A stretch of 64,000 nt of DNA from Streptomyces broussonetiae. Its GTDB lineage: Bacteria > Actinomycetota > Actinomycetes > Streptomycetales > Streptomycetaceae. Location: the NCBI RefSeq assembly GCF_009796285.1, contig NZ_CP047020.1, positions 6,448,001 to 6,512,000 on the forward strand, read 5' to 3'. The position numbers were made by a program, and so were the translations under genes. This document shows positions 34,015 through 53,794 of this stretch, one piece after another (positions within the stretch are counted from its first letter, which is position 1; the number at the start of each line of letters is the position of its first letter). Under the pieces are notes generated by a model. That model did no database searches. It was given only the letters and a program-made list of their open reading frames with translations, and was not told the origin of the DNA.

Positions 34015-34018
34015 TGTG

Positions 34019-35869
34019 TCAGTGCGTGAGCACCAGCCGGGGGTTGTGGATCTCCAGCCAGGTCGCCAGGTCGAGCCAGCGCTCCAGACCGGTGCGGGCC
34101 GCGCCGTCGACGTCGGCGGCGGCCAGGGACACCGTCTGCTGCAGCCATTCCTGGTCGGTGAGCGCGTGCACGGCGTGCCCGCGGTCGGCGAGCAGCTCCT
34201 TGGCGTGCTGCTGGAGCGCGGCCGTGTAGAACGGGTCGCGGGTGGACGGGTAGGGCGCCTTGCGGCGCTCCACGACCGACCGCGGCAGCAGATCGGCGGA
34301 GGCCGCCCGCAGCAGACTCTTCTCACGGCCGTCGTACGTCTTCATCGACCACGGCGTGTTGAAGACGTACTCGACCAGCCGGTGGTCGCAGAACGGCACC
34401 CGGACCTCCAGGCCGACGGCCATGCTGAGCCGGTCCTTGCGGTCGAGCAGGATGCGCAGGTACCGCGTCAGGTGCAGGTAGCACACGAGCCGCATCCGTG
34501 CCTCGAACGCGTCCTCGCCGGCCAGCCTGGGGGCCTGTGCGACCGCCTCCGCGTACCGCCCGCGGATGTAGCCGGGCAGATCGAGGTCGGCCAGCAGGCC
34601 CTTGTCGTAGATCCCGGTGCCGGTGTGCGGGCTGGTCACATGCGTGTGGTCGACCCAGGGGAAGGTGTCGGCCTGCTGGGCCTCGGGCTGGTGCAGCCAC
34701 TTGTAGCCGCCGAACACCTCGTCGGCGGACTCCCCGGACAGGGCGACGGTGGAGCGTTCCCGGATGGCCTTGAAGAGCAGATAGAGGGAGTTGTCGGCAT
34801 CGCCGAACCCGGCCGGCAGGTCCTTCGCGGCCACCACCGCGCGCCGTACCGCAGGATCGGCCATGCTCTGGGCCTCGAACACCAGGTTCTCGTGCGCGGT
34901 GCCGCAGTGCGCGGCGGTCTCGATGGCGAACGGGGCGTCGGCGTCGGCGCGGAACGGGTCGGCGGCGAAGTTCTCCTCGTGCCGGGCGAAGTCGACGGAG
35001 AAGCTGCGGATCTGCTCACGGTCGCCCAGTTCCCGCTGGGCGAAGGCGGTGATGGCGCTGGAGTCCAGGCCGCCGGAGAGCAGGGTGCAGCGCGGCACGT
35101 CGGTGACCAGCTGGCGGCGCACGATGTCGGTGAGCAGCTCGCGCACCCGGGCGACGGAGGCGGCCGTGTCGTCGGTGTGCTCGGTGGCCTCCAGCTTCCA
35201 GTAGGTGTGGGTGCGTTCGCCGCCGCGGTCGACCGTGACCAGGGTGCCGGGCCGGACCTCCCGCATGCCGCGCCACACGGCGTGTCCGGGGGTGCGGATC
35301 CAGGAGAACGCCTCCCGCAGCCCGTCGAGGTCGACGGCCTTCTCCGCCTCGGGGTTGGCGAGAACGGCCTTGGGCTCGGAGCCGAAGAGCACCCCGTCCT
35401 CGGTCGGGTAGTAGTACAGCGGCTTGACGCCCAGGCGGTCGCGGACGAGCAGCAGCCGCTCGGTGCGGCCGTCCCAGACGACGAAGGCGTACATGCCGTT
35501 CAGCCGCTCGGCGAACGCCTCGCCCCACTCCAGGTAGGCGTGCAGCACGACCTCGGTGTCGCTGCGGGTGCGGAAGGTGTGGCCGCGGCGGCGCAGTTCG
35601 TCGCGCAGCTCGACGAAGTTGTAGATCTCGCCGGTGTAGGCGAGGGCGACCTCGCCGCCGCCGGTGTCGTAGGACATCGGCTGGCGGCCGCCCTCGATGT
35701 CGATGACGGCGAGCCGGCGGTGGCCGAGCGCCACGTGCGGCCGGGTCCACACGCCGGAGTCGTCGGGGCCGCGGCAGGCCATGGTCGCGGTCATGGCGGC
35801 GACCGCTTCCTGCTCCCGCTCCCTCGTCAGGTCTCGTCCGTAGGAGACCCAACCGGTCAGACCGCACAT
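34019..35869 (-). CDS. Asparagine synthase (glutamine-hydrolysing), cluster gene
   Basis: The 616-residue AsnB-type amidotransferase has the N-terminal nucleophile Cys2 (MCGLTGWV), the glutaminase domain to about residue 210, then a synthetase domain with the pyrophosphate motif LSGGLDSSAI. It may amidate a carboxylate, or use the adenylating domain for another C-N bond, as in antibiotic pathways. It is last in the leftward five-gene operon (cupin, MetRS-like, fused oxidase, FMN protein, this). The 55-base gap upstream is consistent with co-transcription. Full catalytic residues suggest an active enzyme. Confidence 0.92.
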   Translation of the reverse strand: MCGLTGWVSYGRDLTREREQEAVAAMTATMACRGPDDSGVWTRPHVALGHRRLAVIDIEGGRQPMSYDTGGGEVALAYTGEIYNFVELRDELRRRGHTFRTRSDTEVVLHAYLEWGEAFAERLNGMYAFVVWDGRTERLLLVRDRLGVKPLYYYPTEDGVLFGSEPKAVLANPEAEKAVDLDGLREAFSWIRTPGHAVWRGMREVRPGTLVTVDRGGERTHTYWKLEATEHTDDTAASVARVRELLTDIVRRQLVTDVPRCTLLSGGLDSSAITAFAQRELGDREQIRSFSVDFARHEENFAADPFRADADAPFAIETAAHCGTAHENLVFEAQSMADPAVRRAVVAAKDLPAGFGDADNSLYLLFKAIRERSTVALSGESADEVFGGYKWLHQPEAQQADTFPWVDHTHVTSPHTGTGIYDKGLLADLDLPGYIRGRYAEAVAQAPRLAGEDAFEARMRLVCYLHLTRYLRILLDRKDRLSMAVGLEVRVPFCDHRLVEYVFNTPWSMKTYDGREKSLLRAASADLLPRSVVERRKAPYPSTRDPFYTAALQQHAKELLADRGHAVHALTDQEWLQQTVSLAAADVDGAARTGLERWLDLATWLEIHNPRLVLTH

Positions 35870-35924
35870 GGCGTTTCGCCTTTCTGTGTGTCGTCGTACT
35901 ACGTCTCGGACCCCGGGCGGGGTC

Positions 35925-36590
35925 TCAGCCGAGGTGGCGCGGCAGCGGGATGTCCGGTGCGAGCGCTGGGTCGGGCACCGGGGTGCCCCGCACCAGGCTC
36001 ACGGGGACGACGCCCGCCCACAGGCCGAGTGCGGCGTCGGGGCTGTCGCCGTCGTCCGGCGGTCCGGTGCGGACCTTGACCGACGCCTCCTGAAGGCTCA
36101 GGGCCAGCAGCGTCGTCGCGGCCAGTTCCTTGCGGCTGGGGCGGCGGGCGTAGTCCCACTGGCCGGGCTGGGCCTGCTCGGCGATCAGGCGCAGTCCGGC
36201 CAGGGTCTCCTCCGGGTCGGTGACCCGGCGCGGGACGCCGTAGATCATGGCGCTGCGGTAGTTGATGCTGTGCTCGAACAGCGAGCGGGCCAGCACGATC
36301 CCGTCCACATGCGTGACGGTCACGCAGACGGCCTGCTCGGGCGCCGAGGTCAGGCTGCGCGCGGCGACGGAGCCGTGGACGTACAGGGTGTCCGCGGTGG
36401 CGCCGTACACCGTGGGTACGACCACGGGGGTGCCGTCGACGACGACGCCGAGGTGGCAGACGAACCCGGAGGCGAGGACGGCGTCCAGGTCCGCGCGGTC
36501 GGTACGGCCCTTCTCCTTCATGCGGCGCAGCCGCGTGCGGTCCGTGACCGGGAGCCGGTCTGCGAGGGGCTGGCGGGGGGCAGTGCTCAA
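35925..36590 (-). CDS. FMN-binding split-barrel protein (pyridoxamine-phosphate-oxidase-like, Pyridox_ox_2)
   Basis: The 221-residue protein has the split-barrel core: a CHLGVVVDGTPVVVPTVYGA segment, then DTLYVHGSVAARSL, and the NYRSAMIYG strand. This is the flavin- or heme-binding family related to pyridoxamine oxidase, not the true PdxH. It may oxidise or reduce a cluster intermediate. TTG 36590 has GAAGGTGA upstream and lies 35 bases after the fused-oxidase stop; the first ATG lies inside the protein (MKEKGR). Role in the pathway is inferred only from position. Confidence 0.78.
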   Translation of the reverse strand: MSTAPRQPLADRLPVTDRTRLRRMKEKGRTDRADLDAVLASGFVCHLGVVVDGTPVVVPTVYGATADTLYVHGSVAARSLTSAPEQAVCVTVTHVDGIVLARSLFEHSINYRSAMIYGVPRRVTDPEETLAGLRLIAEQAQPGQWDYARRPSRKELAATTLLALSLQEASVKVRTGPPDDGDSPDAALGLWAGVVPVSLVRGTPVPDPALAPDIPLPRHLG

Positions 36591-36625
36591 GGTGTCACCT
36601 TCGGTGTGTGCCGGGGGCGGAGCGG

Positions 36626-38608
36626 TCACGGCGTGGCGCCCTGCCACTGCAGCAGGCACCGCACGGCGCCGGCCGCCTCTTCGGCGGCGCCCGGCGCCGT
36701 CTTGAAACCGGCTCCGGACCAGCACGCGGCCACCACGACCGGGGGCTCGCCGGGAAGAAGACCCACGAACGGCCCGTCCGGATGGTACAGGTCGGTGCCG
36801 AACCGGCCGCCCTGGAAGGCGACTTGGGCGATCCACGGCCAGCGGTGCCCGACCCCGGCACGAATGTGGGCGACCTGCTCGTCGGTGAGGGTGTCACCGC
36901 CCTCGGCCGGTACGTCCCACTCGTCGACCGGCCTGCCGGTCAGATGGCCGCCGGCGTACGGCCCGTCGAGCTGCGGGCGGCCCCAGATGCCCGAGGTCAG
37001 ATCGCTGACCGCGGGCAGCGGCCGGCCGGGGCCGCGGAAGAAGGCGTACCGGATGCGTTTGGTGCGCGGGGCCGGGCCGCCCGGGCGGGGCGGCAGCCGG
37101 TCGCCGAGCAGGGCGGCGGTGCCGCTGCCCGCGGCCACCACCGCACACCGTGCGGTCACCGAGCCCGCCGGGGTGCTCACCCGCACCCCGCGCCGGTGCG
37201 GCTCCAGGGCCGGCACGGACCCCGGCGGCAGCAGTACGGCCCCGTGCCGCACGGCCCGGGCGAGATACAGGGCGGCGGTACCGGCCGGGTCGGCGTAGCC
37301 GCCGCCCGGTTCCCAGACGGCCGCCGCGACGCCGCTCGCCGTCAAGTCGGGCCACCGCCCGGTCAGTTCGCCGGGGGTGAGCAGATCCGCCTTGATCCCG
37401 GCCGCGGTCAGCTCGCCGACCCCGCGTTCGGCCTCGGCGACGTCGTCCGGGCCGAGCAGCACCACCGAGCCGGTGCGGCGCAGGCCGGCCGACCGCGGCG
37501 GGGCCGCGGTGCCCCACAGCAGCTGGTGGCTGCGCACGGCCAGGGCGCGTACGACGGGCTCCGGCTCGTACGCCCGGACCAGGCCCCCGGAGAACCGGGT
37601 GGCCGACGCGGCCCGCGGGCCGGGGTCGGCGACCGCCACGGACAGGCCCGTCGCGGCCAGTTCGGCCGCGGTGGCGGCGCCCACCACGCCGGCGCCGACG
37701 ACCACCACGTCGTATCCGGTGACCGCCGCAGCGGCCGGGGCCGTGAGCCGGGTGACCGGTACGACCTCCCAGCCGGCGGCGTCGTCCGCGTCGACGGGAT
37801 CGCCGTCGGCGTCGAAGGAGAGATCCGCGGCGGCGCGTACGGCGGTCAGGAGCCGGTCACCGGTGGCGGCCGGGTCCGTGCGCAGGGCTCCTACGAGTGC
37901 CGCGAAGGCCGCGTCGACCTGCCGCTGCGGACCGCCGCGCAGTCGTACGACCCGGGCGGCATCGGCCAGTTCGCCGAGCAGGTCCGCGAATTCGGGCACG
38001 GCGCAGTCGTCGGTGAAGAACAGCGGGCCCTGCCGGCCCTCGGCGCGCAGGCGGTGCGCGGTGGCCGCGGCGCCGTGGTGGGTGCCGCAGACGACGAGGG
38101 GGTCGTCGGGTGCCGGCGGCGCCTTTCCGGAGCCGGCACCGAACCGCTCCGCCAGACGGCGGCCGTAGGCGCTGCCGTCGTCCACCACGGCCGGCACGGC
38201 GATGCCCAGGTCCTGCGCGGCCCGCCGTATCGCCCCCGGCTGGCCCGCGTCGTGCGGGCACCAGCGCAGCGCCCCGCCGCCGCCCCGGGCGAGCAGGTCC
38301 GGGTCGGTGGCCAGGGGCAGGAGCAACGGGAGTCCGGCCTGCCGGTACCAGGGCAACGCCCGTGCCGCGCCCAGGCTGTTGAAGTGGCCGACGACGGCGC
38401 GCACGCCGGCCCCGGGGTCCGCCGTCAGGGCGCGGGCGACCCGCTCGGCCTCCTCGGCGTCGCCCCGGTCGTCGTGGAACTCCCAGGCGAAACCCGGATC
38501 GGTGTGGCCGGCGGCGGCCCGGGTCAGCAGTTCGCCCCAGGCCGCCCGTGGCCCGCTGAAGGGGCCGACGACGGCGACACGCACCGCCCGGGGGTCCTGT
38601 CGCGCCAT
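36626..38608 (-). CDS. Fusion of a periplasmic-binding-protein-like domain to a FAD-dependent amine oxidase
   Basis: The first 300 or so residues resemble the type-1 ligand-binding fold of branched-chain amino acid binding proteins: VAVVGPFSGPR, then GLPLLLPLATDPDL, then FTDDCAVPEFADLL. There is no signal peptide. From about residue 303 a DAO-family flavoenzyme begins with the FAD motif VVVVGAGVVGAATAAEL and ends with GFKTAPGAAE. A cytoplasmic substrate-binding domain may deliver or sense an amino-acid-like substrate for oxidation. The start is ATG 38608, or GTG 38620 overlapping the upstream stop. It is translationally coupled to the MetRS-like gene. Confidence 0.82.
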   Translation of the reverse strand: MARQDPRAVRVAVVGPFSGPRAAWGELLTRAAAGHTDPGFAWEFHDDRGDAEEAERVARALTADPGAGVRAVVGHFNSLGAARALPWYRQAGLPLLLPLATDPDLLARGGGGALRWCPHDAGQPGAIRRAAQDLGIAVPAVVDDGSAYGRRLAERFGAGSGKAPPAPDDPLVVCGTHHGAAATAHRLRAEGRQGPLFFTDDCAVPEFADLLGELADAARVVRLRGGPQRQVDAAFAALVGALRTDPAATGDRLLTAVRAAADLSFDADGDPVDADDAAGWEVVPVTRLTAPAAAAVTGYDVVVVGAGVVGAATAAELAATGLSVAVADPGPRAASATRFSGGLVRAYEPEPVVRALAVRSHQLLWGTAAPPRSAGLRRTGSVVLLGPDDVAEAERGVGELTAAGIKADLLTPGELTGRWPDLTASGVAAAVWEPGGGYADPAGTAALYLARAVRHGAVLLPPGSVPALEPHRRGVRVSTPAGSVTARCAVVAAGSGTAALLGDRLPPRPGGPAPRTKRIRYAFFRGPGRPLPAVSDLTSGIWGRPQLDGPYAGGHLTGRPVDEWDVPAEGGDTLTDEQVAHIRAGVGHRWPWIAQVAFQGGRFGTDLYHPDGPFVGLLPGEPPVVVAACWSGAGFKTAPGAAEEAAGAVRCLLQWQGATP

Positions 38609-38612
38609 GACC

Positions 38613-40202
38613 TCAGTCACCGAAGACCGGGCGGTCGGGCACGGTCAGCGGCCGGCCCGCCGGGGGCGGGGTCAGCGCGGCGGCGTTCACCGCGCGGTCC
38701 GCTTCCTCGCCCAGCAGCGCGGCGAGCCGGGCCGCGCCGGCCGGCATGACGGGAGCGGCCCACGCCGACAGGGCGCCGGCGACGGTGAGCTGGGCGGTCA
38801 GGGCGGCCCGGTGGGCGCGGAGCGAGCGGTCGCGTTCGTGCGCGTGGACGAAACCGAAGTCGTCGGCGCTCGCGACGACCTCGTCCAGCAGGGCGACGGC
38901 GTGGCGCGTGTCGAAGCCCTCGACGCCGTACGCCTCGCGCAGCTCGGCCACGATGCGCTCCAGGCGGGCGTGCAGCCGCTGCCAGGCGGGGCCCGTGGGC
39001 CGCTCCTCGGGGACCCGGCCGTCGCTGTCGCGGGCGACGGCCGCGAACAGCCGCTCCAGCCAACCGTTCCACCGGGTGGTCAGCAGGGCCCGGGTGCGCT
39101 CGAGGTCGGCCCGGGTGAAGCTGGTCTGGCGGCCGTTCGGCCGGTCGGCGAGCACATGGTGGCGCAGGACGTCGGAGCCCGCCTCGGCGAGCGCCTCGTG
39201 GGCCCAGATGGCGTGCCGCCGGCTGGTGGAGAACTTCAGCCCCTCCAGCTGGTAGAACTCGTTGACCACGAAGGCCCGGGCCAGTGCGGCCCGGGGGTGC
39301 AGGGCGGCGTACAGGGCGGGGAACAGTACCGCGTGGAAGTAGCCGTTGTCGAAGCCGAAGAACTGCACGGGCGCCGGCCAGTTCTCCTGCGTGCGCTGCG
39401 CCTCGGGCAGCTCCCACAGATAGCCCGGGGCCATCTCGAACCACACATAGGCCCGCTGGTCCTCGAACCCGGGCACGGTCACCGGCACACCCCAGTCGCC
39501 GGGGTGGCTCACGGCGATCTCCGGCAGCCCGTCGGCCAGCATCCGGTCGCACAGGACCCGCAGATGCGGCGGCATGTCGACCTCGGCCCAGAACGCCTTC
39601 AGCCGGTCGGCGAACGGTGCCAGCGGGAAGTACAGCCGGGCGGCGTCACGGACCTCGGCCGGGGTGCCGCACACCGTGCAGTGCGGGTCGGCGAGGTCGG
39701 CGCAGTCGTTGGGCCGGCCGCACGGCTCGCAGGCGTTGCCGTTGGAGGAGGAGCCGCAGTGCGGGCACTTGCCCGTCAGGTACGCCTCGTACAGCCAGCG
39801 CTCGCACGGGGTGCAGTACGGCAGCGGGCGGGTGCGGGCGACGACGTGCCCGGCGTCGTACAGCCGCTCGAGGAAGTCCTGGACGTGGGCGCGGTAGCCG
39901 TCCTCCTTGCGCGGGTGAACCACCCGGTCGAAGCCGACCTCGGCCTGCCGCCAGACCCGGACGATGGACTCGCCGTAGCCGTCGGCGACCTCGTCGCCGG
40001 TGCGCCCGCCGTCCTTGAGGCCGCGCACCGGGACGTAGCTCTGGTGGTCGTCGAGGCCGGTGGTGTAGCGGACGTCGACGCCGTCGGCCAGGAGGAAGCG
40101 GCGCAGCACGTCACCGGCGACGTAGGGCCCGGCGACATGGCCGACGTGCAGGTCGCCGTTGGGCGTGGGCGGGGTGGCGGTGATCCAGACCGGAGCGTTC
40201 AC
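38613..40202 (-). CDS. Methionyl-tRNA-synthetase-like protein, probable half of a split hydrazine synthetase
   Basis: The 529-residue class I synthetase fold has the HIGH-type motif GDLHVGHV, zinc knuckles (CTPCERW, CPHCGSS, CEPCGRP, CTVCG), a KFSTSR motif in the KMSKS place, and a helical anticodon-type domain. It lacks the extras of a housekeeping MetRS. In known N-N-forming enzymes (Spb40, Tri28) such a domain is fused to a small cupin. Here the cupin is the gene just upstream, overlapping by four bases (GTGA). It probably activates the amino acid that receives the N-hydroxylated amine. The alternative, a resistance MetRS, fits the context less well. Confidence 0.85.
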   Translation of the reverse strand: MNAPVWITATPPTPNGDLHVGHVAGPYVAGDVLRRFLLADGVDVRYTTGLDDHQSYVPVRGLKDGGRTGDEVADGYGESIVRVWRQAEVGFDRVVHPRKEDGYRAHVQDFLERLYDAGHVVARTRPLPYCTPCERWLYEAYLTGKCPHCGSSSNGNACEPCGRPNDCADLADPHCTVCGTPAEVRDAARLYFPLAPFADRLKAFWAEVDMPPHLRVLCDRMLADGLPEIAVSHPGDWGVPVTVPGFEDQRAYVWFEMAPGYLWELPEAQRTQENWPAPVQFFGFDNGYFHAVLFPALYAALHPRAALARAFVVNEFYQLEGLKFSTSRRHAIWAHEALAEAGSDVLRHHVLADRPNGRQTSFTRADLERTRALLTTRWNGWLERLFAAVARDSDGRVPEERPTGPAWQRLHARLERIVAELREAYGVEGFDTRHAVALLDEVVASADDFGFVHAHERDRSLRAHRAALTAQLTVAGALSAWAAPVMPAGAARLAALLGEEADRAVNAAALTPPPAGRPLTVPDRPVFGD

Positions 40203-40594
40203 GCGCTCACCTCCGTGCCCTCGTTTTGCCGGGGCTCGTGCAGCGGCCAGTAGACCGAGAGCCAGGTCAGGGTCTGCGCGGTCGGGTTGTGCACGACGTG
40301 CTCCTTGTTGCGGGCCAGGACGAGCACGTCGCCGACGGTGAACTCGGCCTTCTCACCGGCGAGGTCGAGGCTGCCGGAGCCGGAGAGGATCACCATGACC
40401 TCGTCCTGGTCGTGGCAGTCGGGGTCCGAGGAGGCGCCGGCCGGCAGGAAGCAGGCCATACCGCCGATCGGCGGTTCCTCCTGGCTCTGCTGCCCCTCCT
40501 GGCCCTCCCGGGTCTGCCAGGGAATGATCCGCTGGCACGCCATGCCGAACTCGCTCTCGGCGGCGCCTTCATGTATCCGAAACTTGGTGATCAT
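40199..40594 (-). CDS. Small cupin, probable N-N-bond-forming partner of the MetRS-like protein
   Basis: The 131-residue single-domain cupin has metal-binding residues in CHDQDEV and in KEHVVHN, within the two cupin motifs. It corresponds to the separate cupin part of hydrazine synthetases, where a zinc-bound cupin joins an N-hydroxylysine nitrogen to the amino group of an activated amino acid. It is first in the leftward operon, and its TGA overlaps the MetRS-like GTG by four bases. The ribosome site before ATG 40594 is weak. Assignment rests on the adjacent N-hydroxylase and MetRS-like genes. Confidence 0.78.
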   Translation of the reverse strand: MITKFRIHEGAAESEFGMACQRIIPWQTREGQEGQQSQEEPPIGGMACFLPAGASSDPDCHDQDEVMVILSGSGSLDLAGEKAEFTVGDVLVLARNKEHVVHNPTAQTLTWLSVYWPLHEPRQNEGTEVSA

Positions 40595-40917
40595 GCGCTA
40601 TCCATATCCCGAAAAGGGTCGCTCGGCCGGTGGGCCAGGGTAATTCACATGCCATTTCCTGCCCCTCTCAACTGTGCGTGGCCGCCCGGGTGCCGAGCCA
40701 GAGCGATCCGGCCGACCCTGCAGGAAGGTGCCAGCGGCATAGACCGAAATAACCTGTGATGTCGGGCAAGTTGGCAGGGTGTGACGCGTGTCGAGTGGCA
40801 GCCCGCTGCCACGCTCCGCTGCCCGGCGGCTGCTCGGCCGAAATCCGGGATAGCTTCGAACTCGCCTCGGGCAATGGCATATCGAAACAACGGCCCGACG
40901 GGAAGGGAAATGTCTTG
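40595..40917. promoter_or_regulatory. Divergent promoter region of the cluster
   Basis: The 323 bases between the two divergent operons hold no ORF and are less GC-rich in places. A weak candidate for the rightward operon is TTCGAA / CATATC with a 17-base spacer near 40855-40885. I see no clear operator. The two LuxR-type regulators of the cluster probably act here. Confidence 0.45.
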
Positions 40918-43324: not shown

Positions 43325-43373
43325 CCACCCGGACGACGCCGCAGGGGCGGCGCGACAGGAACGGAGAGAACCG

Positions 43374-45729: not shown

Positions 45730-46468
45730 CCACGCCGGCACGCGCCTCGAGCAGGCGCTGGCCACTCACCGCCTCGTCGTGTTCGACCTCGACGGTGTGC
45801 TCGTGGACTCCAACGAGCTGAAGGTGGAGTGCATGCGCGAGGCGCTGGCGGAGTTCGGTCCGGAACTCGTGGACCCCTACGTCCACGAGTTCCGCCGGAC
45901 CTTCGGCCGCTCCCGCCGCGAGCACTTCCTCGCCTTCCACCAGGACCATCTGGGCGGAGAACAGGCCACGGGGGAGAGATTCGAGACGTTCTACGAGCGC
46001 TGTGCGGGTGGCTACGCCGAACTGCTCGCCGAGCGCTACCCCAAGGCACCGCTGTGCCCCGACGCCGACCGGCTGGTGCGCGCCCTGTCCGCGCGCGGAC
46101 TGCCGCTGTACGTGGCCACCGGCACCCTGACCGCCGAGGCGGAACGGGTCCTGGACGGGCACGGGCTGGTGGGCGAGTTCCGGGCCGTGCTCGGCGGCGA
46201 GGAACCCAAGGCGCGGCGCCTGGCCGCGGCGCTCAGCGCCGAGGGCGCAGCGCCCGGCGAGGCGGTCCTGCTCGGCGACTCGCGCCAGGACCTGCTCGCC
46301 GCCCAGGCAGTCGGCATGGGCTTCGTGCTCGTCACCGGGCACGGATTCTTCCCGCCGGCCCAGGTGCTCGACGGCGCGGACGGGCAAAATGCGCTGGTGG
46401 CGGCCGGATTGGACCCCAGCGGCTTGCTGACCGGCACAGTGGCGTACGAGGGTCGTGCGGGGCGCTGA
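45716..46468 (+). CDS. HAD-family phosphatase
   Basis: The 250-residue haloacid-dehalogenase-fold protein has motif I FDLDGVLVDS, motif II TGT in LYVATGTLT, a motif III Lys (GGEEPKARR) and motif IV LLGDSRQD. The cap type fits beta-phosphoglucomutase or phosphoglycolate-type phosphatases. It probably removes a phosphate from a product of the aldolase genes. It is translationally coupled to the aldolase by a 14-base overlap. Confidence 0.85.
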   Translation: MPLSDHAGTRLEQALATHRLVVFDLDGVLVDSNELKVECMREALAEFGPELVDPYVHEFRRTFGRSRREHFLAFHQDHLGGEQATGERFETFYERCAGGYAELLAERYPKAPLCPDADRLVRALSARGLPLYVATGTLTAEAERVLDGHGLVGEFRAVLGGEEPKARRLAAALSAEGAAPGEAVLLGDSRQDLLAAQAVGMGFVLVTGHGFFPPAQVLDGADGQNALVAAGLDPSGLLTGTVAYEGRAGR

Positions 46469-46542
46469 CCTCCGGCCCCCTGCGGGGGCGGCAGAGCCCG
46501 CCCCGTACGTCCTGACCCGACTGCGAACACGGAAACCCCACA

Positions 46543-47304
46543 GTGACACTTGAGAACGGCAACCGGACCGGCCGGGAGCACGGCGCCCGGCGCGTGGTCA
46601 TCACCGGAGCCGCCCGGGACTTCGGCAGAACGCTCGCCCTCTTCTTCGCCCGCCGGGGAGACGAAGTCCTGCTCTGCGCACGGGACCTGACGGCGGCCGA
46701 GCGGGTCGCCGACGAGATCCGCGGCCTCGGGCACGGCCAGGTCCACGCCTTGCGCTGCGACCTGGCGGACCCGGCGTCGGTGCGCTCCTGCACCGACGAG
46801 ATCGCCACGCTGACCGACCACGTCGACGTGCTGGTCAACAACGGTGCCCGCTGGCTGCCCGGCGAGGACCTCGCCTCCGCCGAGGACGAGGACATCGCCG
46901 CCACGGTCGCCTCGACCGTGACCGGCACCGTCCTCGTCACCAAGCACCTGCTGCCGCTGCTCCTGAAGTCCGAACGGCCCGACGTGGTCAACCTGATCTC
47001 GTCGGCCGGGCTCACCGGGAACCACCGCACCCAGGCCCACGCCGCGTTCTACGCGGCCAAGCACGGACAGGCCGGCCTCGCCGATCTGCTCTCGCCCCAG
47101 CTGCGCCCGCACGGCGTGCGGGTCATCTCGCTGTACCCGCCCGACTTCAGCAACCCGGACCCGCTCGGCCCCGACTGGGACACGACGCCCCGCGGGGCCG
47201 GCGACAAGCTCACCGCCCACTCCCTCGTGGAGTGCGTCATGTTCGCGATCGACCAGCCACGGGACTGCTTCATCAAGGCGTTCCACTTCGAACAGACCGT
47301 CTGA
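46543..47304 (+). CDS. Short-chain dehydrogenase/reductase (first paralogue)
   Basis: The 253-residue Rossmann oxidoreductase has the glycine motif VITGAARDFGRTLA, the NNGA motif, the serine segment NLISSAG and the YAAKHG catalytic Tyr-Lys. It is clearly paralogous to the SDR at 51512 over the whole length, including the ending PRDCFIKAFHFE. Cofactor preference is unknown, although the arginine after the GAA loop hints at NADP. It reduces or oxidises a hydroxyl in the pathway. GTG 46543 follows the HAD gene by 74 bases. Confidence 0.88.
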   Translation: MTLENGNRTGREHGARRVVITGAARDFGRTLALFFARRGDEVLLCARDLTAAERVADEIRGLGHGQVHALRCDLADPASVRSCTDEIATLTDHVDVLVNNGARWLPGEDLASAEDEDIAATVASTVTGTVLVTKHLLPLLLKSERPDVVNLISSAGLTGNHRTQAHAAFYAAKHGQAGLADLLSPQLRPHGVRVISLYPPDFSNPDPLGPDWDTTPRGAGDKLTAHSLVECVMFAIDQPRDCFIKAFHFEQTV

Positions 47305-47313
47305 AAGAACACC

Positions 47314-48030
47314 ATGGGTTCCCTCAACACCAGCACGCCCGTCGTCGTCTCCGGCGTGAGCCGGGGCCTGGGCGCCGCCCTGGCCCGCCGCTTCGCCGAA
47401 CTGGGCCACCCCGTCGCCGGCTGCGGTCGCGACCGCGCGGCCCTGGACCTGCTCCGCGCCGACCTCGGCGCGGGCCACCTGATCACCGTGGCCGACGTCA
47501 CCGACGCCGACGCCGTCCAGACCTGGGCCGAGCAGACCGTACGGCAACTCGGCGCGCCCGCGCTGGTCGTCGCCAACGCCGGGTACATCAGCCCGCAGAC
47601 CCCGGTGTGGGAGACCAGCCCGGCGGACTTCCGCACCACCGTCGACGTCAACGTCGTCGGCGTCTACACCCTGGCCCGCGCCTTCCTGCCCCGCATCGCG
47701 GCCGGCGGCACCTTCGTCGCCGTCTCCTCGGGCTGGGGCCGCAACCCGCGCGGCAGGCTGGCCGCCTACACCGCGAGCAAGTTCGCCGTCGAGGGCTTCA
47801 CCAAGGCCATCGCCCAGGAGGCCGAGGAACTGCTGCCGGGCGTCACCGCCGTCGCCGTGGACCCGGGCGGCGGCGTGGACACCGACATGCTCGCCACCTG
47901 TCTGCCGGACGAACACACCGAGTACCCGGGCCCGCAGGAGTGGGCGAGGGTGGCTGCCGACTACCTGCTCAACGACGTACCCAAGGAGCCGAACGGGGCT
48001 TCCCTGACTGTTCCGTCGCCTTGGGCGTGA
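47314..48030 (+). CDS. Short-chain dehydrogenase/reductase (second type)
   Basis: The 238-residue SDR has the motif VSGVSRGLGAALA, the VANAG motif, serine in AVSSGWG and YTASK as the catalytic Tyr/Lys. It is a more typical SDR than its neighbour and not a close paralogue. It starts nine bases after the first SDR gene, so the two are co-transcribed. It is followed by a small hairpin, where the operon may weaken. Confidence 0.88.
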   Translation: MGSLNTSTPVVVSGVSRGLGAALARRFAELGHPVAGCGRDRAALDLLRADLGAGHLITVADVTDADAVQTWAEQTVRQLGAPALVVANAGYISPQTPVWETSPADFRTTVDVNVVGVYTLARAFLPRIAAGGTFVAVSSGWGRNPRGRLAAYTASKFAVEGFTKAIAQEAEELLPGVTAVAVDPGGGVDTDMLATCLPDEHTEYPGPQEWARVAADYLLNDVPKEPNGASLTVPSPWA

Positions 48031-48047
48031 GCGCCCCCAAGGGGCGC
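48031..48047 (+). terminator. Small hairpin after the second SDR gene
   Basis: A perfect 7-bp stem with a 3-base loop lies directly after the stop codon. An alternative fold pairs CTTGGGCG upstream with CGCCCCCAAG. It may be a weak terminator splitting the rightward operon. Confidence 0.4.
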
Positions 48048-48171
48048 GGTGCCGTGCCGACATACGGCCACCGCCGGGTGGGCGCGGCCGGTGAAACCGG
48101 TCCGTAGCCGCCGAACGGCCCGATGCGCCACCCCGTGAAGCGATCCGCACACCGAACCGAAGGAGACGACC

Positions 48172-49092
48172 GTGCCGAAAGCCGCTGTGGCGGGCCCCTG
48201 GTCCAGCAAGATCCGCCAGCACGAAGCCATCGCGGCCGCCGACCCGGACCTCGCCTTCGACCTGCACGTACTGTCCGGCCCGGCGGAACTCGCAGCGCAC
48301 CTCGCGGCCCGCCGGGACCGGACGGTCGTCCTGCGGCCGGAGATCTCCGACGACACCGGCTCCGCCGTGCTGGTCCGGCCCGGTGCCGCGCTTCCGGAGC
48401 CCGAGATACGCAGGCTGTGGGAGCGGGGCGGACGGATCGTCGCACACGACCATGTGCCGGGGACCCCGTGCTTCGTCAACGGGGTCGTCCTCGACGGCAC
48501 GCTGCGCCTCACCGACGTATGGCGCTGCTTCTCGCTGGAGGAGGGCCCCCGCTCGCTGCTGACCAGTGTGGTGAACCTGGCACCCGGCTCGGCGCGCGAG
48601 CGCGAGCTGGCCCGTCGGCTCGCGCCCGTGATCAACAGCGCCGGCCTGACGGAAGGCCCCGTCACGTTCGAGGCGGTCACGGACGCGGACGGGACCGTGA
48701 AGGTGGTCAAGTTCGCCGCCCGGGCGGCCGGCCACCCGCTGCCGCACCTGTGCTCCCTGCTCGGCCTGCCCGACCAGGCGGCCGCACTTGCGGGCGGCCC
48801 GCAGACCCTCGCCGACCGCCCGCAGGCACCCGGATTCGTCGCCGACTACGCCTTCGTCGCCCGCGTGGGCGGCCGGCTGGTCCGTTTCGAAGGACTCGAC
48901 GAGATACGGGCGTTGCCCTCCTACGCGGGTGACATATTCCTGCCAACTCCGGGCGAGACCATCACCGTAACCACCGGCGAAGGCGGCGCGGGCGCCATCC
49001 TGTTGAGGCACCGGGACGAGGAAGTGCTGCTCGCCGACGTCGAGTTCTGCCAGCGACGCAATCGCGCGGGCGTCTTCTCCGTCACCCCCTGA
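48172..49092 (+). CDS. Degenerate ATP-grasp-like protein
   Basis: The 306-residue protein aligns in its middle part with the ATP-grasp ligase encoded next. HDHVPGTPCFVNGVVLDGTLRLTDVW matches the EYLFGGEYYVNTVSLDG...CDIW stretch. But the acidic metal site of a normal ligase (ELKLTPDGPCLIE) is replaced by FEAVTDADGTVKVV, and no complete ATP-binding lobe is visible. It may be a non-catalytic partner or a substrate-holding subunit. GTG 48172 has AAGGAGACGACC upstream. Confidence 0.6.
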   Translation: MPKAAVAGPWSSKIRQHEAIAAADPDLAFDLHVLSGPAELAAHLAARRDRTVVLRPEISDDTGSAVLVRPGAALPEPEIRRLWERGGRIVAHDHVPGTPCFVNGVVLDGTLRLTDVWRCFSLEEGPRSLLTSVVNLAPGSARERELARRLAPVINSAGLTEGPVTFEAVTDADGTVKVVKFAARAAGHPLPHLCSLLGLPDQAAALAGGPQTLADRPQAPGFVADYAFVARVGGRLVRFEGLDEIRALPSYAGDIFLPTPGETITVTTGEGGAGAILLRHRDEEVLLADVEFCQRRNRAGVFSVTP

Positions 49093-49140
49093 CGGCCTCC
49101 GGTCCCTCCACCCCACACGTAATCGACGGGAGTAACCCAG

Positions 49141-50415
49141 ATGTCAGCACGCCGCAGGGTCGCCATCGTCGACGCCTACTCCTCCGGGCGCCGGCTCGCC
49201 CCCCTGTTCCGGGAACGCGGCTTCTCCTGCGTCCACATCCGCAGCACGCCCGTCGTGCCCGCGGTGTACGCGCCCTCCTTCGTACCGGGCGACTTCGAGG
49301 CGGAGGTCGTCCACGGCGGCGATCCCGGGGAGACCGCGGCCCGTGTCGCCGAGCACGAGCCGGTCGCGCTCATCGCCGGCATCGAGAGCGGCGTGGAACT
49401 GGCCGACACCCTGAGCGAGGCCCTCGGCCTGCTGACCAACGGCACACAGCTCAGCTCCGCCCGCCGGGACAAACACCGCATGGGGGAGACCGTGCGCGCG
49501 GCCGGGCTGCGGGCGGCCCGGCAGCTCCTCACCGCCGACGAGGACGAACTGCTCGCCTGGTACGAGGGTGAGATACGGGCCCGCGCGGGCGACGGCCGGC
49601 CCGCCCGGGTGGTGCTCAAACCGGTCAAGAGCGCGGGCAACGACGGGGTGTTCTTCTGCGACGGCCCGGACGAGATACGTGCCGCCTTCCGTTCCGTGCT
49701 CGGCACCGACAGCGCGCTGGCCATCCGCAACGACGAAGTGCTCGCCCAGGAGTACCTGTTCGGCGGCGAGTACTACGTCAACACGGTCAGCCTCGACGGT
49801 GTGCACCAGGTCTGCGACATCTGGAGGACCAGCCACATCAACGCCAACGGCGTACGCGACCTGCTCGACGGCGCCTGGCTGCTGGACCGGCACGGCCCGC
49901 TGCAGGAGAAGCTGACCCGGTACGCGTTCTCCGTCCTGGACGCCCTCGGCATCCGGCACGGCCCCGCCCACACCGAGCTGAAACTGACCCCCGACGGCCC
50001 GTGTCTGATCGAGACCGGCGCCCGGCTGTGCGGTGGCGACCTGCCCCGCCTGGTGCGCAAGGCGGTGGGGGAGAGCCAGCTGGACTGGACGGCCGACGCC
50101 TACACCGAACCGGAGCGCTTCCGGGCCCGGGCCGGAGAGCCGTACGCCATCCGTGAGTACGTCTCCTCGATGTCGCTGATCGCACCCCGCTCCGGCACCC
50201 TGCTCAGCTACCCACGGCTGGAGCAGGTCAAGGCGCTGGAGAGCTTCCACGAGGCGAAGATCTCCGTGAACGCGGGCGAGGCGATCCGGCGCAGCGTCGA
50301 CGACTTCAGCGTGCCGATGCTGGTCGACCTCGCGCACCCCGTGCAGGACGTGGTCCTGCGCGACTACGCGACGGTGCGCTACCTGGACGGGGAAGGGTTC
50401 TATGACATCGCCTGA
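49141..50415 (+). CDS. ATP-grasp carboxylate-amine ligase
   Basis: The 424-residue ligase has an N-terminal preATP-grasp domain, an ATP-binding lobe with the lysine in LKPVKSAGNDGVFF, and the metal-binding HTELKLTPDGP and CLIETGARL. This is a complete site for acyl-phosphate formation and amide bond formation, as in dipeptide or amide-forming enzymes. It likely joins an amino acid or the hydrazine unit to another acid. It overlaps the exporter gene by 14 bases and follows the degenerate homologue. Confidence 0.9.
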   Translation: MSARRRVAIVDAYSSGRRLAPLFRERGFSCVHIRSTPVVPAVYAPSFVPGDFEAEVVHGGDPGETAARVAEHEPVALIAGIESGVELADTLSEALGLLTNGTQLSSARRDKHRMGETVRAAGLRAARQLLTADEDELLAWYEGEIRARAGDGRPARVVLKPVKSAGNDGVFFCDGPDEIRAAFRSVLGTDSALAIRNDEVLAQEYLFGGEYYVNTVSLDGVHQVCDIWRTSHINANGVRDLLDGAWLLDRHGPLQEKLTRYAFSVLDALGIRHGPAHTELKLTPDGPCLIETGARLCGGDLPRLVRKAVGESQLDWTADAYTEPERFRARAGEPYAIREYVSSMSLIAPRSGTLLSYPRLEQVKALESFHEAKISVNAGEAIRRSVDDFSVPMLVDLAHPVQDVVLRDYATVRYLDGEGFYDIA

Positions 50416-51394
50416 CCCGGCCCGGCGGGCCGGAACGCTCGTCGGACCGCTGCTGGTCCTCAGCTACTGCGTGGCCAACTCGGTCAAGTCGGTGGTCGAG
50501 GGCCGGCTGGTGCAGGACATCAGCCCCGAGTTCTACGCGTTCAACGCCTTCTTCGTCATCCAGGTGCTCTACCTGGCGCTGTGCCGGGACCACCGGGCGC
50601 TGCTCGCGGCCGTACGCCGCTGTCTGCCGGACGTCCTCGCCTACAACGTGACGACGACCCTGAGCTGGGTGGCGGTGCTCTACGCGCTGCGCGTGTTCGA
50701 GCCGGCGGTGACCAACTCGCTGATCGTCGGCATGGTGCCGGTCCTGACCATCCTGATCGGCGGCCGGCTGCGCCCGCAGGCCCGTCCCTCGCGTACCGAG
50801 GTCCTCTCCTCGCTGGGCGTGCTGGCCTCCATGGGCTACCTCGCCGCGATGACCCTGACCGGCTCCTCGGGCACCGGGTCCGTCTCCGCCGGCGGATTCG
50901 TGCTCGGCGTGGTGGCCAGCGTGGTCACCGCGGCGGCGGTGGCCGGCAACACCTTCTACACCAAGCGCCTGGGCGAGGCGGGCATGAAACCGGGCCAGAT
51001 GATGGCCTGCCGCTTCCCGCTGCTCCTCGTCTCCACCCTCGTGCTCTTCCTCGTCCGGGGCAGCGCCGCCCCCTACTCCGCCGTCAACGTCACGCTGTTC
51101 CTGGTGCTCGGCCTGGGCGTGGCCGGCACCCTGCTGCTGCTCCAGGTGGGCATCACCCGTACCGAGCCGATGACGGTGTCCCTGCTGTTCGGCAGCAATC
51201 TGATCCTGACGTTCGCCATCCAGTTCTTCGACCCGCGCATCGACCAGTCCGTGCACACCCTGATCGGGGTGCTGCTGCTGACCGGCTTCATCCTCTGGGG
51301 CAGCCTCTCCGGGGTCCGGCAGGCCGCCGGAGCGGACCGCGAACCACCCCGGGCGCCGGCGCCCGCCACCGACACCTCACCACACCGCAGCTGA
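50402..51394 (+). CDS. EamA/DMT-family transporter
   Basis: The 330-residue membrane protein has about ten helices in two EamA halves. Examples are NAFFVIQVLYLALC, VLYALRVFEPAVTNSLIVGMVPV and TLFLVLGLGVAGTLLLLQVGI. Family members export small polar metabolites. As the only transporter in the cluster it is the likely exporter and self-protection of the product. ATG 50402 overlaps the ligase stop. Confidence 0.87.
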   Translation: MTSPDPARRAGTLVGPLLVLSYCVANSVKSVVEGRLVQDISPEFYAFNAFFVIQVLYLALCRDHRALLAAVRRCLPDVLAYNVTTTLSWVAVLYALRVFEPAVTNSLIVGMVPVLTILIGGRLRPQARPSRTEVLSSLGVLASMGYLAAMTLTGSSGTGSVSAGGFVLGVVASVVTAAAVAGNTFYTKRLGEAGMKPGQMMACRFPLLLVSTLVLFLVRGSAAPYSAVNVTLFLVLGLGVAGTLLLLQVGITRTEPMTVSLLFGSNLILTFAIQFFDPRIDQSVHTLIGVLLLTGFILWGSLSGVRQAAGADREPPRAPAPATDTSPHRS

Positions 51395-51511
51395 CCCGGG
51401 CGCCGACCGCCCCGCGAAGGCCACCCGCGGCCGATCCGGGGCCGCCGCCCCGCGAAGCCCACCCTCCGCACGAGCGGACGTCCGCTCGCGATCCGAAAGG
51501 CACCCCCTGCA

Positions 51512-52234
51512 ATGGAGAACCTCCGCGTCGTCATCACCGGAGCCGCCCGGGACTTCGGGCGCACCCTGGCCATCGTCCTCGCCCGGCAGGGCGCCGAGGT
51601 GTTCCTCTCCGCGCGCAGCCTGGACGGCGCGCGCCGCACCGAGCAGGAGATCCGCGACCTCGGCCACGACCGGGTGCACGCGTTCGCCTGCGACATCACC
51701 GACCCCGAGTCCGTACGCGCCTTCGCCGAGGGCGTGCGGGAACGGGCCGGTGCCGTCGACGTGCTCCTCAACAACGGCGCCAACTGGCTGGAGAGCGAGG
51801 ACCTCACCACCGCGGACGACATCGACATCCTTGCCACCACCGCGTCCGCCGGCGGCACCGTCCTGATGGTCAAGCACTTCCTGCCGCTGCTGCGCGCCTC
51901 CCAGCGGCCCGACATCGTCACCCTGGTCTCGGCTGCGGCGACGCCGAACTACACCGGCTGCGCGGGCCACGAGGCGTTCTACGCGGCCAAGGGCGGCCAG
52001 GCCGCGTTCACCGGCATCCTGTCCAAGCGGCTGCGCGCGGAGGGCATCCGCGTGATCTCCCTGTTCCCGCCGGACTTCGACAACGTCGACCCGCTGTCGC
52101 CCGAGTGGGAGGGCGCCTCGCGCACCGCCAAGGACACCCTGACCGCCCAGTCCGTCGCGGAGTGCGTCACCTTCGCGGTGGGCCAGCCGCGGGACTGCTT
52201 CCTCAGCCAGCTGCACTTCGAGCCCAGCCACTGA
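51512..52234 (+). CDS. Short-chain dehydrogenase/reductase (paralogue of the 46.5-kb gene)
   Basis: The 240-residue SDR has the same VVITGAARDFGRTLA start, NNGANWLE motif and YAAKGG catalytic region as the protein at 46543, and the same PRDCF ending. The two paralogues likely act on two sites or on successive steps of one substrate. The 117 bases before it, after the exporter, hold no feature I can support. Confidence 0.88.
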   Translation: MENLRVVITGAARDFGRTLAIVLARQGAEVFLSARSLDGARRTEQEIRDLGHDRVHAFACDITDPESVRAFAEGVRERAGAVDVLLNNGANWLESEDLTTADDIDILATTASAGGTVLMVKHFLPLLRASQRPDIVTLVSAAATPNYTGCAGHEAFYAAKGGQAAFTGILSKRLRAEGIRVISLFPPDFDNVDPLSPEWEGASRTAKDTLTAQSVAECVTFAVGQPRDCFLSQLHFEPSH

Positions 52235-52278
52235 CCGGGCCCCGCGCCGTACGTCCGCACCCCCGAAAGGCAACTGTC

Positions 52279-52863
52279 ATGACACTGCTCCAGGTTCTGC
52301 CGGCCACGGGCGAGGCGAAGCCGCTGCTGACCACCCAGGACCCCGACCGCATCGCGGCCGAACTCGGCGCGCACGGCGCCCGGTTCGAGCGGTGGCCCCT
52401 CAAGGACCTGCCGGCCGGCTTCGGCGACGAGGACGTGCTCGCCTCGTACCGGGCCGAGGCCGACCGCTTCTCGGCCGAGACCGGCCTGGGTCACGTCGAG
52501 GTGGTCCGGATGGCACCGGACGACTCCGACCCCCAGTGGGCCACCGAGGCCCGCGCGTCCCGGGACCGCTACTTCAACGAGCACACCCACCGCTCGGACG
52601 AGGTCTGGTTCTTCGCCCAGGGCCGCTGCGGCTTCTATCTGCGGCTGGCCGGCGACGACACCGTGCATGTGCTGATCGCCGAGCCGGGCGACCTGGTGTG
52701 CACCCCTAAGGGCGTGCGGCACTGGTTCGACATGGGCGCAACGCCCGACTTCGCCGCCCTGCACATCTACGTCGCCGAGACCGACTGGGACGAGGCCTTC
52801 ACCGGCGATCCGATCGCGTCCCGCTTCCCGCACATGGAAGAGCTGCTGACCGCGGCCCGCTGA
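52279..52863 (+). CDS. Acireductone-dioxygenase-like cupin
   Basis: The 194-residue cupin carries the ARD metal motif HTHRSDEVWFF with the downstream histidine in PKGVRHWFDMG, and the family segment AGDDTVHVLIAEPGDL. ARDs cleave 1,2-dihydroxy-3-keto enediols with oxygen in methionine salvage. No salvage genes are near, so it probably acts on a cluster enediol, in line with aldolase and SDR neighbours. ATG 52279 follows AAAGGCAACTGTC. It is distinct from the small cupin at 40199. Confidence 0.83.
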   Translation: MTLLQVLPATGEAKPLLTTQDPDRIAAELGAHGARFERWPLKDLPAGFGDEDVLASYRAEADRFSAETGLGHVEVVRMAPDDSDPQWATEARASRDRYFNEHTHRSDEVWFFAQGRCGFYLRLAGDDTVHVLIAEPGDLVCTPKGVRHWFDMGATPDFAALHIYVAETDWDEAFTGDPIASRFPHMEELLTAAR

Positions 52864-52888
52864 CCCGCAGGCCCTCTTCCCCCCGCTC

Positions 52889-52926
52889 CCGGGGGTGCCC
52901 GGCACCACCGTGCCGCGCACCCCCGG
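52889..52926 (+). terminator. Compound hairpin between the ARD-like and DDAH-family genes
   Basis: A 10-bp stem (52889-52898 with 52917-52926) encloses a further CGGCAC/GTGCCG stem. It suggests that the DDAH-family gene has its own promoter or lies at reduced expression. Confidence 0.6.
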
Positions 52927-52957
52927 TCAGTTCCGCACACCCCGAAACAGGAGCGAC

Positions 52958-53794
52958 ATGACGTCCACGACCGCGCCCGCCACCCCTGAGCGCACCTTCC
53001 GTCCCCGCCGCTACCTCATGTGCCGACCCGTCCACTTCGAGGTGACGTACTCCATCAACCCCTGGATGGATCCCACCAAGCCGGTCGACGCCGAGCTGGC
53101 CGTCGCCCAGTGGGAGGCGCTGTACGCCCTGTACCGCGAACTCGGTCACACCGTCGACCTCATCGACCCGCTGCCCGGCCTGCCCGACATGGTGTACGCG
53201 GCCAACGGCGCCACCGTGGTGGACGGCAAGGTGCTGGGCGCCCGGTTCCGCAACGCGGAGCGCGCCGCCGAGGGTCCGGCCTATCTGGAGTGGTTCCGGT
53301 CCCACGGCTTCGGCGAGACCCACGACCCCGAGCACATCAACGAGGGGGAGGGCGACTTCCTCGTCACCGGCAGCTGGATCCTGGCCGGCCGGGGCTTTCG
53401 CAGCACCGCCGAGGGCCACCGGGAGGCACAGGAGTTCTTCGGCCGCCCGGTCATCGGCCTGGAACTGACCGATCCGCGCTACTACCACCTCGACACCGCG
53501 CTGGCCGTGCTGGACGGCGACGAGATCATGTACAACCCCGAGGCGTTCACGCCGGGCAGCCGGGAGGTGCTGCGCCGGCTGTTCCCGGACGCCCTGCTGG
53601 TCGGGCCCGAGGACGCCGGGGTCTTCGGACTCAACGCCGTCAGCGACGGCCGGCACGTGGTGCTTCCCGAGGCCGCCCAGAACCTGAGCGGCCGGCTGCG
53701 GGAGCGGGGCTTCGAGCCGCTCGGCCTCGACCTGTCCGAGCTGCTCAAGGGCGGCGGCAGCGTCAAGTGCTGCACTCTGGAGATACGCGGCTGA
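52958..53794 (+). CDS. Dimethylarginine dimethylaminohydrolase/amidinotransferase-family enzyme
   Basis: The 278-residue guanidine-modifying-fold enzyme has an NEGEGDFLVTG acidic motif, the catalytic histidine segment YYHLDTALAVLD and the C-terminal nucleophile in SVKCCTLEIRG. It hydrolyses or transfers amidine groups of arginine-type substrates, often giving citrulline or ornithine. It could supply ornithine to the N-hydroxylase or belong to core arginine metabolism. The ATG follows AGGAGCGAC. Its end overlaps the convergent regulator gene by 32 bases. Confidence 0.88.
   Translation: MTSTTAPATPERTFRPRRYLMCRPVHFEVTYSINPWMDPTKPVDAELAVAQWEALYALYRELGHTVDLIDPLPGLPDMVYAANGATVVDGKVLGARFRNAERAAEGPAYLEWFRSHGFGETHDPEHINEGEGDFLVTGSWILAGRGFRSTAEGHREAQEFFGRPVIGLELTDPRYYHLDTALAVLDGDEIMYNPEAFTPGSREVLRRLFPDALLVGPEDAGVFGLNAVSDGRHVVLPEAAQNLSGRLRERGFEPLGLDLSELLKGGGSVKCCTLEIRG

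Follow-up and report, generated by a model that had tools for sequence, protein, structure and literature searches.

The stretch analysed here (the window) comprises 64,000 nucleotides of the Streptomyces broussonetiae chromosome (NZ_CP047020.1, positions 6,448,001 to 6,512,000), which is a single contig of 9.74 Mb; positions below are those of the window unless stated otherwise. Between an Opp-type transporter operon and the next conserved gene the window carries an inserted island, the content of which spans an AsnB-type amidotransferase through two LuxR-like regulators (Table 1), and which very probably makes a small nitrogen–nitrogen (N–N) metabolite. Family scans recovered every gene named in an earlier note on this DNA with the family given there, the EamA exporter by a weak match under its cut-off, together with four parts beyond that list: a LivJ-like domain, a PNPOx_2 protein, a short ATP-grasp-fold protein and an ArgZ/DDAH-family enzyme. 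The Pfam matches of the LuxR-like pair itself are under threshold or absent.

Table 1. The island and its genes, in window positions, with the evidence for each assignment.
Feature	Position	Strand	Evidence and remarks
Inserted island	33954..55711		Left edge between 33.68 and 33.95 kb (oppF end), right edge ~55.71 kb
AsnB-type glutamine-dependent amidotransferase	34019..35869	-	TIGR01536 496 bits; N-terminal Met-Cys and SGGLDSS present
PNPOx_2 split-barrel protein, probable flavoprotein	35925..36521	-	PF12900 3e-41; PDB relatives include flavin-nucleotide-binding protein
Sarcosine/glycine-oxidase-type FAD oxidase with N-terminal cytosolic LivJ-like domain	36626..38584	-	DAO 7e-39; LivJ 2liv 8e-22
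Methionyl-tRNA synthetase (MetRS)-like ligase	38613..40202	-	PF09334 5e-69; HVGH and KFSTS; own tree group 95/81
Free-standing zinc cupin	40199..40594	-	Aligned to RHS1 5uqp; D59, H61, E65, H99
Side-chain amine N-hydroxylase (lysine or ornithine)	40918..42249	+	Best PDB match MbtG 6e-151, then KtzI 2e-122
Second DAO-family FAD oxidase	42242..43324	+	PF01266 1.7e-48
DHDPS-superfamily aldolase-like enzyme	43374..44312	+	PF00701 1.4e-26
RhaM-like small protein (mutarotase family)	44309..44698	+	PF05336 4.7e-16
DRE-TIM (HMGL / 4-hydroxy-2-oxovalerate-aldolase-like) aldolase	44695..45729	+	PF00682 7e-27; PRK08195 1.8e-33 on longer frame 44209-45729
HAD phosphatase	45716..46468	+	PF00702 2e-22
Short-chain dehydrogenase (SDR) 1	46543..47304	+	PF00106 3e-32
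SDR 2	47314..48030	+	PF00106 4e-36
Short ATP-grasp-fold protein, possibly non-catalytic	48172..49092	+	No Pfam match; model pLDDT 90; best PDB matches are L-amino-acid ligases 3vot, 4wd3
ATP-grasp ligase, PRK07206 type	49141..50415	+	NF005543 372 bits (cut-off 302); DdaF 190 bits, under its cut-off
EamA-like exporter (weak match)	50402..51394	+	PF00892 3e-5; 24.8 bits vs cut-off 28.2
SDR 3	51512..52234	+	PF00106 6e-28
ARD-like metal cupin	52279..52863	+	PF03079 2e-16
ArgZ/DDAH-family enzyme, possible arginine dihydrolase	52958..53794	+	ArgZ 6jv0 2.7e-48; NCBIfam dimethylargininase 445 bits
Two tandem LuxR-like regulators	53763..55168	-	31-36% to GerE-domain regulators beside related clusters

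Comparison with four relatives that lack the island sets its limits. The last gene of the transporter operon, oppF, ends at 33953 and the next conserved gene begins at 55712, and this interval of ~22 kb corresponds to aligned gaps of 300, 1649, 148 and 176 bp in all four relatives. The left edge was placed at or just within the end of oppF because the last ~90 residues of its product (those past 361 of 451) have no match in these relatives, while the position of the right edge brings both LuxR-like regulators inside the island. The oligopeptide transporter at 27.4–33.9 kb was considered as part of the cluster and rejected, as it stays put in the island-free relatives and as a SARP-type gene, not a transporter, adjoins AsnB in three species with orthologous clusters. 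The island is a real, complete-looking and conserved biosynthetic one.

At its centre are a zinc cupin, a MetRS-like ligase and an N-hydroxylase, which together make up a full predicted set of enzymes for hydrazine formation. The cupin aligns without gaps to RHS1 (5uqp, 9.5e-6), an N–N-forming zinc cupin with zinc residues Asp63, His65, Glu69 and His103 (excerpts of PMC8664883). The window residues D59, H61, E65 and H99 fall at these positions, an equivalence that assumes an inferred three-residue numbering offset in the deposited 5uqp chain, and the same four residues occur in all 26 cupins of a set of 27 loci picked by their MetRS. This set derives from a scan of genome contigs in which Streptomyces, Actinophytocola, Micromonospora and Actinoplanes yielded 25 loci; one with 24 matched residues (L060) was left out, and the remaining 24 were joined by the window, a second copy in the host genome and G012. 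Of the 27 loci, window included, 26 have both a cupin and an N-hydroxylase with the MetRS, which exceeds what chance would give; the exception is a 3.4-kb contig.

The MetRS-like protein is encoded by a separate gene that overlaps that of the cupin by 4 bp, and it keeps both adenylation motifs, HVGH (HxGH) and KFSTS, the latter also found in Pyrococcus MetRS. In a tree of 73 rows, from which short rows had been dropped, it belongs to a group of 25 (support 95/81; L007 and L031, the same gene, are both counted) that is separate from the rows of five housekeeping MetRS (100/100) and from the group (90/88) of 13 fused cupin–MetRS proteins. Comparison of the substrate pockets places a methionine, as in the fused type, at the position we take to be Ala256 of the E. 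coli enzyme, and suggests, without being decisive, a small amino acid as substrate; eight specificity residues are mentioned in excerpts of PMC11705231. A MetRS of the window group (≥68% identity) was found in at least five of 295 genus genomes, a sample taken as Streptomyces; this search scored five candidates per genome, and since the genus searches here and below scored 5–8 first-look candidates per genome, the numbers they give are minima. In S. violaceus NRRL B-2867 (L057, 9983–11810) the MetRS-like gene is broken into two open frames.

A cupin/MetRS pair of S. malaysiensis is among the hydrazine synthetases identified in the literature (Table 2 in excerpts of PMC11705231). The genome of S. 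malaysiensis subsp. samsunensis (S. samsunensis) holds a single MetRS-like gene besides the housekeeping one at E ≤ 1e-30, that of this cluster, 88% identical to the window's, and the listed pair is therefore probably the orthologue of the window's cupin and MetRS (candidate accessions A0A291T5V8/A0A291T5Z9). The N–N chemistry belongs to a known enzyme family, has probably been assayed in an orthologue, and is thus not itself new. Zinc residues, adenylation motifs, tree, co-location and this probable assayed orthologue together lend good support to the hydrazine-synthetase reading of the earlier note, and neither cupin nor MetRS grouped with unrelated families, an outcome that the note had named as a refutation.

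The first oxidase is fused to a domain related to amino-acid-binding proteins. With a profile of 15 sequences, its residues 1–285 match LivJ (Table 1) and other members of this class; the domain opens at a conserved AVVGPFSGPR without a signal peptide, and contains an invariant serine (S70) and a near-invariant threonine (T93) that presumably occupy the place where LivJ binds the amino-acid backbone. The model of the whole fusion has a mean pLDDT of 81 and a pTM of 0.57. Its oxidase half adopts the sarcosine/glycine-oxidase fold (Foldseek 5.5e-22); the best 50 matches include oxidases of sarcosine, glycine and iminodiacetate, and since members of this fold oxidise N-substituted glycines, a hydrazino-glycine substrate would fit. 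At E ≤ 1e-15 the LivJ-like domain occurs in at least six of the 295 genus genomes, five core genomes and one with a 38% match, eight candidates being scored per genome so that other weak ones could have escaped detection. Two Actinoplanes loci encode the halves in separate, more divergent genes, and a Pfam scan of one of these loci gave DAO for the oxidase half; in locus L039 the fusion was detected by tblastn and not by gene calling. In S. lonarensis (L045, 11634–13554) the two parts lie in different frames, as separate genes or through a frame break. We found no description of a periplasmic-binding-protein/FAD fusion with hydrazine in the open-access literature. A cytosolic LivJ-like domain attached to an amine oxidase is an uncommon arrangement, and one that could be tested as a means of holding an amino-acid adduct.

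Among solved structures the N-hydroxylase is nearest to MbtG, with KtzI second, and its substrate residues in the alignments fail to separate lysine from ornithine. The ArgZ-like protein keeps, in the alignment, the Asn changed in deposit 6juz and the Cys changed in 6jv1, residues that we take to define ArgZ activity. Its 56% paralogue in the host genome is flanked by an Lrp/AsnC-type gene and a class-III aminotransferase gene, the product of which by eye resembles ornithine aminotransferase. The ArgZ-like match and the gene neighbours of the paralogue point towards ornithine as the hydroxylamine donor, and the enzyme may be an arginine dihydrolase that supplies it, with ornithine and not citrulline as product.

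The genes from 43374 to 46468 (DHDPS-like, RhaM-like, DRE-TIM, HAD) overlap end to end and appear to form a carbon-building module. Their order is kept in all nine other loci that show all four, DRE-TIM and HAD are fused into one 578-aa protein in the second copy, and the RhaM-like protein is 70–95% identical in 10 of the 26 other loci. A DHDPS-like gene at E ≤ 1e-30 was found in at least three of the 295 genus genomes (seven first-look candidates scored per genome), in four copies, all of them inside these clusters, for which reason we rejected the idea that the four genes are a common sugar operon. Class-wide, DHDPS-like matches of 32–40% occur in 13 genomes besides the window's; seven of these loci were opened, one of them a 7.4-kb contig, and contained no RhaM-like, DRE or HAD relative at E ≤ 1e-4, two showing weak partial SDR or AsnB matches. 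The DHDPS-like protein encoded on a plasmid record of Streptomyces sp. NBC_01483 (NZ_CP109439.1, 1.56 Mb, 997256–998191) shares 94% identity with that of the window, and the cluster may therefore also sit on megaplasmids.

Across the 27 loci the parts most often present are MetRS (27), cupin (26), N-hydroxylase (26), LivJ-like domain (24) and its oxidase (25), followed by DRE-TIM (18) and PNPOx (15). Three parts occur 11 times each (RhaM-like, HAD, short ATP-grasp), three 10 times each (DHDPS-like, second oxidase, ArgZ-like) and three 6 times each (AsnB, ATP-grasp ligase, ARD-like), with EamA in 3. The identity cut-offs behind these counts were chosen by eye, genes at a distance from the MetRS are undercounted where the 10-kb flanks cut a locus (L040 begins at RhaM), and the LivJ-like and oxidase figures miss the two Actinoplanes loci with separate halves; the ArgZ-like genes look whole in nine rather than 10, because that of L038 is in fragments. 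Three forms of the locus can be distinguished: an extended one like the window's; a compact one (seven loci) of regulator, usually a 67–84-aa gene, DRE-TIM, cupin, MetRS, fusion oxidase, a permease-sized gene (identified as permease in one locus), N-hydroxylase and PNPOx; and one with an ArgZ-like gene, joined in the annotated S. djakartensis locus by methyltransferase and MFS genes. The loci, which range from the compact nine-gene form to 19 genes plus regulators, constitute a pathway family whose differences can be read against its products.

The second copy lies at 7.998–8.014 Mb of the host chromosome (L023/L024). It is paralogous to the island, with shuffled gene order and protein identities of 39–81% (DHDPS-like and RhaM-like 81%, AsnB 72%, MetRS 71%, N-hydroxylase 63%, ARD-like 39%), and is followed by a SARP-type regulator and a non-ribosomal peptide synthetase (NRPS) block (C, A, SDR, TE, C-A-PCP, MFS). 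In S. malaysiensis subsp. samsunensis, S. antioxidans and S. beigongshangae the cluster orthologous to the window's adjoins the same SARP gene and most of the NRPS block, TE not having been called in the first two and C missing in the third. The absence of NRPS noted earlier thus holds at this locus but not for the second copy or for these three orthologues. In all five clusters compared, ATP-grasp and EamA are present where the free-standing C is absent (window, S. beigongshangae) and the reverse is true in the other three, a small sample that suggests alternative ways of capping the same product. The ATP-grasp ligase, of PRK07206 type, is related to dapdiamide synthase. Of the two AsnB paralogues in the host genome (72% and 61%), the nearer is that of the second copy, and the window protein itself is a candidate former of a carboxamide or hydrazide.

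These features are best explained as a whole, with a probability that we put at roughly 0.7, by a biosynthetic cluster for a small molecule, of the kind with an unfused hydrazine synthetase. Homology argues strongly for the first three steps: the N-hydroxylase would hydroxylate the side-chain amine of lysine or ornithine, the MetRS-like enzyme would adenylate a small amino acid (glycine being the likeliest) and esterify it to the N-OH, and the zinc cupin would rearrange this ester to an N–N-linked adduct. With less certainty, one or both flavoenzymes may then oxidise the C–N bond beside the hydrazine to a hydrazone, or cleave it, while the fused LivJ-like domain grips the amino-acid end of the adduct; the DHDPS-like, RhaM-like, DRE-TIM, HAD and SDR proteins may add and reshape a carbon unit towards a ring, this unit probably entering as a phosphorylated aldehyde or keto acid. 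AsnB may next convert a carboxylate to a carboxamide or hydrazide, and the ATP-grasp ligase may cap the product with an amino acid before export by EamA. This set of families would fit a hydrazine adduct undergoing oxidation, aldol extension, perhaps cyclisation, and amidation or peptide capping. The product class put forward in the earlier note, a hydrazine, diazo or azo compound on a sugar- or keto-acid-like unit, stays an inference.

Several observations weigh against this account or parts of it. The steps from the flavoenzymes onwards rest on family membership. The LivJ-like half rests on sequence, because none of the best 50 fold matches covers it, and AsnB is present in six of the 27 loci, many of which are cut by the 10-kb flanks. 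The supply and use of ornithine are countered by the nearness of the hydroxylase to MbtG, a lysine enzyme, by the NCBIfam equivalog that names the ArgZ-like protein dimethylargininase (cut-off 300 bits; Table 1), and by the ArgZ-like gene, intact in the window, being present only as fragments beyond the ARD gene (L037, L038) in two of the three nearest relatives, namely S. antioxidans and S. malaysiensis subsp. samsunensis. The alternation of ATP-grasp and condensation genes is a weak pattern, since the window, itself among the five clusters, lacks an NRPS block altogether. Finally, the tree program warned of long branches, those of the fused group included, and the link to the S. malaysiensis pair was made by elimination, without an accession.

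Among known systems, the PyrN/RHS1 type (pyrazofurin; Rhodococcus jostii RHS1) shares with the island the Asp-His-Glu-His zinc cupin (as in RHS1), a MetRS-like adenylating partner and a co-located side-chain amine hydroxylase, and RHS1 and its MetRS are free-standing, as in the window. It differs in that the island has oxidases, aldolases and AsnB, and that no saccharopine-dehydrogenase family (pyrL-type) appeared in the family scans of the island.

The hydrazinoacetic-acid cassette (Spb38-40, Tri26-28, AzsLMN) also combines N-hydroxylase, DAO-family oxidase, cupin and MetRS functions, and a tentative alternative, possible though we do not favour it, is that the island follows the same route. 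Lysine would then be the nitrogen donor only, the oxidase cleaving N6-(carboxymethylamino)lysine to hydrazinoacetic acid as for s56-p1, triacsin, azaserine and N-nitroglycine, and the tailoring genes would turn the acid into a hydrazone, diazo or azo product. The three reaction types are the same, the hydroxylase has the lysine enzyme as its nearest relative, and the DAO-family oxidases match the description of Spb39 in excerpts of PMC11705231. Represented by 13 sampled fused-type clusters rather than by its own sequences, however, this type proved distant: cupin and MetRS are fused in all 13 (Pfam) but separate in the window, identities to the window's proteins are 35–39% for MetRS and 31–35% for N-hydroxylase, and the window MetRS lies outside the fused group. 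In all 13, moreover, the gene between N-hydroxylase and MetRS encodes 352–374 aa (DAO-labelled in eight), too short for the LivJ-like domain that the window oxidase carries, and family scans of the island proteins contained no carrier-protein, acyltransferase or AMP-ligase family. A plain cassette of this kind was rejected on its MetRS grouping, hydroxylase identity and unfused cupin and MetRS, and the earlier assignment of the core enzymes to the s56-p1/triacsin type did not hold. Six of the 13 fused proteins (L066, L067, L068, L073, L074, L075) bear a C-terminal carrier-protein domain, as reported for azaserine clusters.

A more specific and rather unlikely proposal is that the island and the second copy are pyridazine-forming (pyridazomycin-type) pathways that start from ornithine, glycine and a three-carbon unit. 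Pyridazomycin is a 3-carbamoylpyridazinium N-linked to the side chain of ornithine. Its formation would need an ornithine N-hydroxylase, an N–N ligase, a C3 aldolase and an amidation, all of which are present here as families. Ornithine, oxaloacetate and glycine are its presumed precursors (excerpts of PMC7347517). Ornithine from the ArgZ-like enzyme would be N5-hydroxylated and joined to glycine by the unfused hydrazine synthetase, the LivJ–oxidase fusion would yield a hydrazone, the two aldolases and the phosphatase would provide a three-carbon extension, and closure to the pyridazinium ring would be followed by amidation through AsnB. The named producer is S. violaceoniger, and S. malaysiensis, with its orthologous cluster, belongs to the S. 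violaceusniger group. In contrast, the ATP-grasp ligase is not obviously needed, the window hydroxylase looks nearer the lysine type, and the likeness is one of product. If the proposal were true, one strain would make two congeners, one ATP-grasp-capped and one NRPS-capped, the compact nine-gene relatives would make a simpler ring, e.g. a pyrazole amino acid, and genes would be at hand for a ring whose biosynthesis a 2020 review called ‘not well understood’ (excerpts of PMC7347517).

The albofungin cluster (Afn8, Afn9, Afn14, Afn18) likewise has separate MetRS-like and cupin genes, an N-hydroxylase and an AsnB-like enzyme, differing in that the window has no polyketide synthase and has the aldolase/phosphatase module instead. 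Its AsnB-like Afn14 is reported as a hydrazine transferase (excerpts of PMC11705231) and AsnB lies near the core both here and in the second copy, so that oxidases might free hydrazine for AsnB to move to a carboxylate from the aldolase module, giving a simple hydrazide. We consider this quite improbable, given the small share of core loci with AsnB (6/27), the normal Cys2 glutaminase site kept by the window protein, as expected with ammonia as donor, and its 61% identity to the third AsnB of the genome, which makes recruitment from primary metabolism simple.

That the MetRS-like protein has another role and the cluster forms no N–N bond is highly improbable: a sister MetRS-like group (16 tree rows) that lost KFSTS and showed no cupin or N-hydroxylase nearby in five genomes checked indicates that the family can change function, but the window group keeps KFSTS, the full-zinc-site cupin and the hydroxylase, and its orthologous pair is probably listed as active (excerpts of PMC11705231). 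Among the sister loci (L008-L022, L033, L034, L087, L088, L091), the five checked all have an AsnB-like gene (~32%) and four of them an SDR, with a glycosyltransferase in the one annotated.

What appears to be new here is the gene set and its architecture, namely the LivJ–oxidase fusion, ArgZ-like enzyme, aldolase/phosphatase operon and AsnB-type amidotransferase, a combination for which we found no description in the open-access literature. Hydrazine synthetases are known, and none was found described as joined to a two-aldolase/phosphatase carbon module in the excerpts covered, which further included PMC10445470, PMC13274452, PMC13061610, PMC12154649, PMC9469721 and PMC11659421.

Related combinations occur in other cupin/MetRS clusters. 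One of another type (L080, G207) likewise includes an ArgZ-like gene (67%), along with ATP-grasp-like genes, and another (L084, G219) pairs a MetRS 44% identical to the window's with a PNPOx 73% identical, so that PNPOx travels with more than one hydrazine group. Within the window, genes for serine hydroxymethyltransferase and the glycine cleavage T-protein lie at 21386–24296, ~10 kb to the left of the island and outside its limits.

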